Source of the DNA: an uncultured Clostridia bacterium
GTDB taxonomy: Bacteria; Bacillota; Clostridia; Oscillospirales; Oscillospiraceae
Direction of reading: 5' to 3'
DNA: 33,789 nucleotides
Assembly (NCBI GenBank): GCA_947367115.1
Contig: CANBCW010000023.1
Location: 1 to 33,789 of the forward strand
The notes under the pieces are model-generated. The model did no database searches. It was given only the letters and a program-made list of their open reading frames with translations, and was not told where the DNA came from. Positions within the stretch are counted from its first letter, which is position 1. The number at the start of each line of letters is the position of its first letter. This document shows positions 98 through 3,608 of this stretch, piece after piece. The translations under genes were made by a program, and so were the position numbers.

Positions 98-1426
98 TTA
101 TTCAGATACGACGCAGCATTCTTCAATGCCGTAGTAACGGAAGTGTTGTACCGTTTCCTCATCAATCTGCTCTCCGCAGACGATGATTGGCACCGCCGGA
201 GGACAGCCCACCGTGGCAGCGGCAAGAACTCTGCCGATGCTGTCTGATACGCAGATGGTTTCAAAGGGGGATAGGGCAGCCGCGCGGATCCCCATGACGC
301 GTTTAGCTATGTGAAGATGTGGCGGGCGGTCTGACAAAGCAGGACACCGGGGAATGCCAACGAGGGCTTTTTCCAGTCGGTTCAGCCCCTCATCACCGGT
401 TTCAGGTGTGACCATCAGCACCAGATAGTCGGGGTCGGAGAATTCGCATTCAATATGCGCCTTCCGCAAAAGGTCAGCCAGTTCAGTACCGTAATAGCCG
501 CAGCGCTTTGCGTCTATGGTCAGTTTGATCGGTTCGCTGCCCGAAAAAACAAACCCATGTGCAGCCAGCCTTGCTTTACAGCCTTGCACAGCCTTGACGG
601 CTGCCGAGAGCCGTTCCCTGTAACCGTCGGACAAATACTGATTTGCCGCGTCCAGAGATTGCAGGATCAGGTAAGAAGGACTGGTGGAACCAAACAGTGC
701 CAGCACGTTTTTGGCATAACCGCTCAGGGCAGGGGAGGTGTGCAGATAGGCACCGCCAGTGAGCACCGGCAATGTCTTATGGGCGGAGTCGCAGCACAGA
801 TCCGCGCCCAAATCCATGGGATGAAGAGAGCCGGGGAGAAATTTCAGATAGGAACCGTGGGCGTTATCCACGATAAAAAGGCAGCCGTGGCGGTGTGTTG
901 CTTCCGCTAAAGCGGCAATATCTAGCATATTGCCCAGATAATCCGGACTGGTCACATAAACTGCAGCGGGTTTTTCGGACATATTCGCCAACGCCCTGTC
1001 CAAATCCTCGGCGCTGATGCTGCAGGAAAGATATGAATTAGAATCCTCAGGATACAGCCATTCGATATCCATATCCAGCAGAGCCGCGGCGTGGAGCAGT
1101 GCTTTGTGGGCATTGCGCCCGGCGGCGATCAAAGGCTGTCTGCCGGTACGTTTTGCGTGGAGCAGACACAGGTACAGCATAGCCTGGATGCAGTGGGAAG
1201 ACCCTCCTGTGGAATAAAAAGTGGGGCATCCAAACAGGGCAGAGGCGTTTGCTTCACTTGCGGCGATGATGCCGTTTGCTTCATACAGACTGTCGGCACC
1301 GGCGATCTCAGTAATGTCAAGATGTTCGATGCCAAGCGGCCCCGCACCTTTGTGGCCGGGCATATGCAGCCGCAGGGTGCCGCTTTCGGTGTAGCGGCGG
1401 ACAAAGTCGCAGATGGGGGTATCCAT
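98..1426 (-). CDS. Orn/Lys/Arg decarboxylase family PLP-dependent enzyme
   Basis: Protein from MDTPICDFVRRYTESGTLRLHMPGHKG with the family hallmark 'PGHKG', plus 'STGGSSHCIQAM' and 'CDSAHKTLPVLTGGAYLH' (PLP-lysine region). Start trimmed from the ORF-track start at 1474 to ATG at 1426, overlapping the stop of the upstream gene. Confidence 0.88.
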   Translation of the reverse strand: MDTPICDFVRRYTESGTLRLHMPGHKGAGPLGIEHLDITEIAGADSLYEANGIIAASEANASALFGCPTFYSTGGSSHCIQAMLYLCLLHAKRTGRQPLIAAGRNAHKALLHAAALLDMDIEWLYPEDSNSYLSCSISAEDLDRALANMSEKPAAVYVTSPDYLGNMLDIAALAEATHRHGCLFIVDNAHGSYLKFLPGSLHPMDLGADLCCDSAHKTLPVLTGGAYLHTSPALSGYAKNVLALFGSTSPSYLILQSLDAANQYLSDGYRERLSAAVKAVQGCKARLAAHGFVFSGSEPIKLTIDAKRCGYYGTELADLLRKAHIECEFSDPDYLVLMVTPETGDEGLNRLEKALVGIPRCPALSDRPPHLHIAKRVMGIRAAALSPFETICVSDSIGRVLAAATVGCPPAVPIIVCGEQIDEETVQHFRYYGIEECCVVSE

Positions 1427-2811
1427 CAGCCGTTTCCTTCCAAGGCTCTTGCCACGGCGACCATGATGGCGCACTCCATCCGCTTGCGGAACAGGTCGCA
1501 GCCATATTGATAGACACCCTTAACGGAGCCGGTGGAGTGATAGGCGTTGGCAGCGCACCCGCCGGAGCAGTACAGCTTTGCCCAGCAGTCGCGGCATTCC
1601 GGGCGGGAGTAGACATTGCAGGACATAAATTCATCCTGAATGGCGGTGTTGCTGACACCGTCCCAAATATTACCGAGCCTGAACTTTTCATCACCTACGA
1701 ATTGATGGCAGGGGTACAGGTCGCCCCAGGGGGTGACCGCCATATACTCCGTTCCGCTGCCGCAGCCGGAGATTCGCTTGTAAATGCAGGGGCCGCCCTT
1801 CAAATCAATCATGTAGTGGTAGAAGGTGAAGGGTCTGCCCTCCTTGTCCCGCTGCAGCATCAGCTCAGCCAGCTTCTCATACTGCTCCATAACGATGGCC
1901 TTATCCGCTTCCGTCAACTCAGAAGGATCGCCGGGGGCGCACACCACAGGCTCCATGCTCAGTTCCGTAAAGCCAAGATCCAGCATCTGCTGGATGTCCT
2001 TGAGAAAATCAGGGTTGGCGTGGGTGAAGGTGCCGCGCATGTAGTAGTTCTTGCCGCCCCGAGCCTCCACGAATTTCTGGAACTTGGGTACGATTCGCTC
2101 CCAGCTTCCCTTACCGGCGTAGTCCACACGATAGCGGTCGTGGATCTCCTTCCGGCCATCCAGACTCAGAACGACATTACTGCATTCCCGATTAGCAAAA
2201 TCGATCACATCATCGTTGACCAGCATGCCGTTGGTGGTCAGGGTAAAGCGGAAATTCTTGTTATGTTCCTTTTCAATGCTCCGGGCGTAAGCAACCAGAT
2301 CCTTGACCACCTGGAAGTTCATCAGCGGCTCACCGCCGAAAAAGTCTACCTCCAGATTGCGCCGGGAGCCGGAATTGGCCACCAGGAAATCCAGAGCCTG
2401 CTTGCCAACCTCAAAGCTCATCACCGCTCGCTCGCCGTTATACTTACCCTGACTGGCAAAGCAGTAGGAACAATTCAGGTTGCAGGTGTGAGCGATATGC
2501 AGGCATAGAGCCTTGACAACACCGGCGGTCTTCTGCTTCAGCTTGCCCGCCATGGGCTCGTAGTTGTCCGGCACGAACAGCTTGCCCTGCTCTTTCAGTA
2601 TGACCACCTGATCATAGCATTCGGTGAGATCACCGGCGGTGATATCCGTCCGTCCGGCATACTTTTCTGCCATGGCAGCGAGGATATCCTCCCGGCTGTT
2701 AGTTTCAAACATGGCAATGATATCGTAGGCGACTTCATCCACCGCGTGAACAGCGCCGGAACAGATATCCAGCACGATATTGTAGCCGCCCAGTTTATAT
2801 TGATGTACCAT
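1426..2811 (-). CDS. scfB: SCIFF peptide maturase, radical SAM/SPASM protein
   Basis: 461 aa from MVHQYKLGGYNIVLDICSGAVHAVDEVAYDII; radical SAM 'CNLNCSYCF'; 'DFFGGEPLMN'; C-terminal Cys-rich SPASM region (CRDCWAKLYCSGGCAANAY). SD ggagga lies just upstream. The track ORF 1426..3129 is an N-terminal over-extension. Confidence 0.92.
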   Translation of the reverse strand: MVHQYKLGGYNIVLDICSGAVHAVDEVAYDIIAMFETNSREDILAAMAEKYAGRTDITAGDLTECYDQVVILKEQGKLFVPDNYEPMAGKLKQKTAGVVKALCLHIAHTCNLNCSYCFASQGKYNGERAVMSFEVGKQALDFLVANSGSRRNLEVDFFGGEPLMNFQVVKDLVAYARSIEKEHNKNFRFTLTTNGMLVNDDVIDFANRECSNVVLSLDGRKEIHDRYRVDYAGKGSWERIVPKFQKFVEARGGKNYYMRGTFTHANPDFLKDIQQMLDLGFTELSMEPVVCAPGDPSELTEADKAIVMEQYEKLAELMLQRDKEGRPFTFYHYMIDLKGGPCIYKRISGCGSGTEYMAVTPWGDLYPCHQFVGDEKFRLGNIWDGVSNTAIQDEFMSCNVYSRPECRDCWAKLYCSGGCAANAYHSTGSVKGVYQYGCDLFRKRMECAIMVAVARALEGNG

Positions 2812-2826
2812 AAGTGCTTCCTCCAT

Positions 2827-2857
2827 AAAAAATGCCGCCATGCTGGCGGCATTTTTT
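2827..2857. terminator. Perfect 14-bp hairpin between scfA and scfB (attenuator-like)
   Basis: AAAAAATGCCGCCA (2827-2840) TGC TGGCGGCATTTTTT (2844-2857): perfect inverted repeat with a T6 tract, located between the two genes. Confidence 0.85.
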
Positions 2858-2866
2858 GCTTTGCAA

Positions 2867-3013
2867 TTACTCGCCCTTGTTCTCGCAGGCCTGGTTGGCA
2901 ATGCCGCAGCTGGTCTTACAAGCAGACTGGCAGGAAGTCTGGCACTCGCCGCAACCGCCGTTTTTGGCGCTGTCGCACAGGTTACGAGTCTCAATGGTCT
3001 TGATGTGTTCCAT
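2867..3013 (-). CDS. scfA: SCIFF (six-cysteines-in-forty-five) ranthipeptide precursor, 48 aa
   Basis: Reverse-strand translation MEHIKTIETRNLCDSAKNGGCGECQTSCQSACKTSCGIANQACENKGE*. Matches the SCIFF family core CGECQTSCQSACKTSC and lies directly upstream of the maturase. Too short for the supplied ORF track. Confidence 0.95.
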   Translation of the reverse strand: MEHIKTIETRNLCDSAKNGGCGECQTSCQSACKTSCGIANQACENKGE

Positions 3014-3043
3014 AATGGTAACCTCCATAAGATAGTTCGACTT

Positions 3044-3072
3044 ATTTTAACATATACAGGTGGAAAAGTCAA
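3044..3072 (-). promoter_or_regulatory. Sigma-A-type promoter for scfA
   Basis: On the minus strand: TTGACT - 17 nt - TAAAAT (+ strand AGTCAA 3067-3072, ATTTTA 3044-3049). Confidence 0.65.
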
Positions 3073-3140
3073 TATTCGCCCGGGGGAATTATTTGCCGGC
3101 AAGGTCAGATAAATTGTTGTTTGGCGCACGAAGAAACGCT

Positions 3141-3375
3141 GTCATTGCGAGGCCCGCAGGGCCGTGGCAATCCCCCACGGCGATGCGCAAATGTTACGAT
3201 AACCACCGAAAATGCCGGAAGAACCGGGGGATTGCCAGAAGGTGAATTGCCCCGAAGGGGCAAGAGAGGCCACCCTGGGGTGCGCCAGTGTCTAGCCCCG
3301 CAGGACTGTGCAAGCGAGCAACCGATGCGCCAGCATCGGCTCTTAGCGAGTCGCAGCGCACTGGCTCGCAATGAC
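3141..3375. repeat. Dispersed palindromic repeat, family A, composite copy
   Basis: Terminal inverted GTCATTGCGAG (3141-3151) / CTCGCAATGAC (3365-3375); internal GGCAATCCCCC (3166-3176) / GGGGGATTGCC (3226-3236); further internal hairpins TTGCCCCGAAGGGGCAA and CCGATGCGCCAGCATCGG. Confidence 0.8.
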
Positions 3376-3460
3376 ATATTTCTTTTTTTGTGTGCCAATA
3401 ACTCCGTAAACACCAATTCCGCCCACCAGATACAATATGTGCCAAATGCACAAAAGATGC

Positions 3461-3489: not shown

Positions 3490-3507
3490 TGTTTCGACAA
3501 ATTAACT

Positions 3508-3608
3508 GACGCGGAAGGGGGAGACCCTGACGGGAAAGGAATGCCATACAGTCTTTGATCCACGGTGGTGGGCCTTGGTCGGCGTTCCCTTTTCGGGAGC
3601 GCCGCGTT
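3508..3608 (+). promoter_or_regulatory. Candidate structured 5' leader RNA of the hyd maturation operon
   Basis: Closing pairing ACGCGG (3509-3514) / CCGCGT (3602-3607); internal GGG-GAGA-CCC, CCAC-GGTG-GTGG and GGCGTTCCC (3581-3589)/GGGAGCGCC (3595-3603) hairpins, all upstream of the SD at 3615-3620. Confidence 0.4.

Follow-up and report, generated by a model that had tools for sequence, protein, structure and literature searches.

The window, a 33,789-nt stretch of DNA from an uncultured Clostridia bacterium, carries on its minus strand the SCIFF precursor gene scfA (2867..3013), the gene of its radical SAM/SPASM maturase, scfB (1426..2811), and a gene for an Orn/Lys/Arg-decarboxylase-like PLP-dependent protein (98..1429; PF01276, E 9e-26). 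The scfA product is a 48-aa peptide, MEHIKTIETRNLCDSAKNGGCGECQTSCQSACKTSCGIANQACENKGE, whose ATG at 3013 lies inside a 53-aa minus-strand ORF (2867..3028); the plus strand at 2867-3013 reads a different frame. The initial annotation had placed a SCIFF precursor at exactly these coordinates; it had missed the minus strand, the seventh cysteine, the glycine at residue 37 and the terminator between scfA and scfB. The search against SCIFF family models that it had proposed gave scores above the curated cut-offs for both TIGR03973 (80.5 bits, E 5.9e-23; cut-off 50) and PF13165 (82.8 bits, E 1.5e-23; cut-off 27). scfA was the only SCIFF precursor gene in the assembly.

The peptide contains seven cysteine residues, at positions 13, 21, 24, 28, 32, 36 and 43. 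Cys 21, 24, 28, 32, 36 and 43 show the six-cysteine spacing of SCIFF peptides (~45 residues), and Cys13 is extra. When scfA was compared with 103 relatives of the same subgroup, 297, 174 and 1855 differences were counted at codon positions 1, 2 and 3, respectively. The median dN was 0.054 and the median dS 1.07 (NG86; computable for 81 pairs with dS > 0), indicating strong purifying selection. Since the differences sat mainly at third codon positions and dN was low relative to dS, the scfA frame is translated. A chance Cys-rich ORF, or an unrelated Cys-rich protein of the ferredoxin or metallothionein type, would agree with the short length and low complexity of scfA and with a weak match in the PDB to a segment of ferredoxin type; however, the family models, the synteny with scfB and the dN/dS values make this scarcely credible, and it is refuted unless the models are wrong. 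Judged by its sequence, scfA adds one more member to a family already known and common, which confirmed the initial finding. As a single gene, it is an ordinary annotation.

A radical SAM/SPASM maturase had been noted directly after scfA, and we found ScfB there, encoded at 2811-1426 and starting 55 nt downstream of scfA, with 758 bits to TIGR03974 (cut-off 425). ScfB is homologous to CteB (PDB 5wgg/5why; E 2e-160, residues 1-452). It contains a CX3CX2C motif (CNLNCSYC, 110-117) and SPASM cysteines at 342, 350, 368, 406, 409, 415, 419 and 438, all invariant in 220 relatives. scfA was paired with scfB at 222 of 223 scfA loci, the lone exception being a short contig. The 567-aa maturase ORF that crosses scfA in another frame, as previously described, was also seen; because its frame was open across scfA in just 5 of 222 relatives, the extension arose by chance and ScfB begins at 2811 (461 aa). 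The decarboxylase-like gene overlaps scfB by ATGA. It adjoined scfAB at 121 of 135 loci with Gly at residue 37 of the precursor and at 0 of 83 loci with Thr, and thus marks the Gly37 clade.

Genes for TM1266, HydE, HydG and HydF stand divergently on the other side of scfA. This divergent arrangement in the window would suit a single functional unit of scfAB and the hydrogenase-maturation genes; however, hyd genes were nearly absent from the surroundings of scfA in relatives (a single HydF fragment at 3.5-4 kb and two weak matches to HydG, 29-30% identity), and a repetitive element separates scfA from the hyd genes. Such a unit is very improbable, and the hydrogenase linkage was rejected as the neighbourhood was not conserved among relatives. 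The repetitive element (3130-3400), with TGTCATTGCGAG/CTCGCAATGACA ends, gave 52 assembly matches, of which two were full length, and looks like a small non-autonomous repeat.

Transcription and translation signals of scfA and scfB

A promoter with a TG extension (TTGACT-17-TAAAAT; 3044..3072, minus strand; 10/12 consensus) precedes scfA. Matches of at least 10/12 within 90 nt upstream of scfA were present in 135 of 222 relatives, compared with ~7 in shuffles, mostly 30-40 nt ahead of the ATG. A Shine-Dalgarno sequence, GGAGG (3022..3026, minus strand), was read directly 8 nt before the ATG. Both elements had been attributed to scfA in the initial annotation and were borne out.

The gap between scfA and scfB contains a putative intrinsic terminator (2827..2857, minus strand) with two perfect 14-nt arms, a 3-nt loop and a T6 tract; the Shine-Dalgarno sequence of scfB, GGAGG (2820..2824, minus strand), was read directly just past the T tract. 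A hairpin followed by T4 was found in this gap in 94 of 104 relatives having Gly37 and the leader cysteine, in 39 of 61 Thr37 relatives and in 6 of 19 Gly37 relatives without the leader cysteine; dinucleotide shuffles gave expectations of 0.3, 0.2 and 0.1, respectively. Compensatory exchanges occurred in every core pair of the stem (e.g. GC to CG, CG to TA). Rfam matches near the hairpin (E <= 5) were all below gathering and were dismissed as chance terminator matches. A word-based literature search found no description of a terminator between scfA and scfB. Attenuation between precursor and maturase is usual in other RiPP operons.

The stem ended a median of 23 nt from the scfB ATG, which leaves no room for a separate scfB promoter. 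The terminator and the lack of room together point to read-through as the route to scfB, and scfB is probably expressed in this way. Strong hairpins in general can protect 3' ends, so that the element could serve mRNA processing or stability rather than partial termination. This is unlikely, because an uninterrupted T tract is conserved right after the stem, as in terminator geometry, and the stem sequence recurs at other genome sites as a generic terminator-like sequence. From the conserved terminator, a simple expectation follows for the stoichiometry of precursor to maturase.

Leader of the hydrogenase-maturation operon

The leader of the TM1266-hydE-hydG-hydF operon contains a covarying hairpin (3503-3544, plus strand). 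The hairpin has a CUGA...RAAG frame, and its internal loop is in most cases tandem GA. Base pairing is possible between GGAATGCC (3538-3545) and GGCGTTCC (3581-3588), the latter being the 5' arm of a terminator at 3580-3604. An antiterminator/terminator pair after the hairpin is possible from these pairings (leader 3503-3604, plus strand).

A model built from 16 leaders gave the window 37.6 bits; one base of the window's row in the training alignment, in the flank and outside the structure, was mistyped, and the window's match was scored on the true sequence. Among the 16 leaders, 97% of the cells paired, with 32 double changes versus 10 when shuffled. The model had 59 distinct matches with 117 double changes versus 31, counted in an alignment fitted to the structure. 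When 98 whole genomes of the order were scanned, 23 matches came up, and hyd maturation genes adjoined 21 of these. For the class, 118 genomes were covered; there, every match with E < 1e-4 lay beside hyd genes except the one at L357, and weaker matches were often away from hyd genes. Rfam had no match at gathering in the window or in 20 hyd leaders. Hydrogenase was unmentioned in the main texts of the RNA-discovery literature that we compared. The leader is possibly an unreported riboswitch or attenuator, a candidate new regulatory RNA, and as such a more novel lead of the window than SCIFF itself.

At L333 and L342 (near 1501-1539), the motif precedes a small gene of ~160 aa, followed by HydG; because of this position, the small gene may be part of hydrogenase maturation or of the control of that process. 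At L348 and L346 (near 1501-1542) and at L351, the motif is found directly ahead of hydG, within the operon, as a second or separate copy.

Residue 37 and the position of the thioether ring

SCIFF was found in 146 of 197 genomes of the order and in 163 of 200 of a phylum sample; the precursor-maturase pair is common in Clostridia and already known. Removing duplicates left 223 scfA genes, drawn from close ScfB relatives (135 from 80) and from the 146 genomes of the order. Residue 34 was Thr in 222 of them, as in the window. At residue 37, 136 genes had Gly, 83 had Thr and 4 had Ser, in a set where the window's subtype is over-represented because the 80 relatives were picked by likeness to its ScfB. 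The window scfA has Gly37 instead of Thr37; a Thr37 acceptor is a trait of two studied SCIFF members and lies outside the family definition. Thr37 was present in 27 of 28 hits in a sample of best-scoring phylum hits, biased toward high scores, suggesting that Thr is probably the ancestral state.

The Thr37/Gly37 split was a single change on ScfB trees (FastTree local support 100; IQ-TREE quick SH-aLRT 100). Ten ScfB positions switched along with residue 37 of the precursor; residues 331 and 333 were Phe in 81/81 Thr37 maturases and Tyr in 134/134 Gly37 maturases. Since this was one event on the tree, the switching positions are compatible with co-adaptation and do not prove it. Leader Cys13 was shared by the window and 115 subgroup members and was missing from part of the Gly37 clade. 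It co-occurred with maturase Cys17 in 106 of the 114 Gly37 pairs having Cys13; there were 20 exceptions to this pairing and just 2-3 independent changes, and we therefore make no claim for it. In a four-member clade (L162, L176, L181 and L188), Cys32 and Thr37 were both Ser (CQSASKTSCS), and ScfB was intact.

Few peptide systems of Clostridia are as widespread as SCIFF, and published accounts disagree on where its ring lies (PMC8326336, PMC8172795). The Tte1186a ring is given as a Cys32-Thr37 thioether (PMC8326336), and the CteA ring as Cys32-Thr37 in vitro and as Cys32-Thr34 (C-gamma) in E. coli; reviews attribute the Thr37 acceptor to Bruender 2016 and Grove 2017, and the Thr34 acceptor to Hudson 2019 (PMC8326336, PMC8172795). 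The window scfA belongs to a gut-bacterial branch whose peptide no longer has one of the two cross-link sites in dispute, and the genome comparison thus bears on this question. A ring through the Thr37 side chain is impossible in the Gly37 clade; therefore, either Thr34 is the general acceptor or this clade differs. We favour Thr34 as the general acceptor on the basis of the alignment; its conservation alone is insufficient to show this because the entire stretch around it is invariant.

If the clade differs, the alternative link may be a sactipeptide-like (sactionine) thioether from Cys32 to the alpha carbon of Gly37, or there could be an extra ring at Cys13. The single, fully supported change from Thr37 to Gly and the ten co-switching maturase positions, including the Phe to Tyr changes fixed on both sides at 331 and 333, are in line with a different ring. 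Against it, the core CQSACKTSC is unchanged, the co-switching positions changed on the same branch and are not independent evidence, and Cys13 is a leader residue that some members of the clade lack. We consider a different ring quite unlikely. The ring may also differ between relatives, since the four with Ser32 keep ScfB. An equally improbable extension is that the Gly37 clade, with its co-inherited ScfB branch (Tyr331/Tyr333) and the Ser32 sister group, makes a ring unlike that of thermocellin, so that SCIFF would not be one molecule across Clostridia. The large clade without Thr37 and the small clade without Cys32 are natural test cases that need no mutagenesis; these variants, with Gly37 or Ser32, are together with the conserved terminator of value beyond ordinary SCIFF annotation.

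Proposed mechanism and comparison with known systems

Our preferred reading, with a probability of about 0.9, is that scfA encodes a SCIFF precursor in which ScfB forms a Cys32-Thr34 thioether ring, and that scfA has its own promoter with partial read-through to scfB. ScfB would bind the leader (about residues 1-20) through its N-terminal part. Its radical SAM cluster (CNLNCSYC) would abstract a side-chain hydrogen, and the SPASM auxiliary clusters would help to join a core Cys to a core Thr as a thioether. By homology, the ring would run from Cys32 to the C-gamma of Thr34, proposed because the alternative acceptor in the literature, Thr37, is replaced by Gly in the window. Transcripts from the scfA promoter would mostly end at the terminator after scfA, and partial read-through would give less scfB and less of the coupled decarboxylase-like gene. 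By analogy with characterised relatives, the product is predicted to be a ranthipeptide with a non-alpha thioether. The initial annotation fairly described the biological role of SCIFF as poorly understood: in solventogenic clostridia, quorum sensing has been linked to SCIFF ranthipeptides by one study, known through reviews (PMC8326336, PMC8102284), and any signalling role of the window product would be by analogy.

The freyrasin pair PapA/PapB has radical SAM/SPASM thioether chemistry in common with the window pair. However, the PapB model gave ScfB a score of 270, below the cut-off of 340, and the Cys-X3-Asp repeats of PapA are not found in scfA, which has no Asp four residues past any Cys. 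Tte1186a/Tte1186 of Caldanaerobacter subterraneus belongs to the same SCIFF family by definition; the window scfA, without Thr37, could not form the Cys32-Thr37 ring of Tte1186a through a Thr side chain. Thermocellin CteA/CteB (Clostridium thermocellum; PDB 5wgg, 5why) is likewise a precursor-maturase pair. ScfB aligns over residues 1-452 with CteB, a crystallised SCIFF maturase (E 2e-160), and the scfA leader aligns weakly (E 0.54), residue for residue, with the CteA leader 1-21 that is bound in 5wgg. CteA has Thr37 (reported by Grove 2017) and Lys13, whereas the window scfA has Gly37 and Cys13, and the window locus differs from CteA/CteB by the terminator between scfA and scfB and the decarboxylase-like neighbour described here.
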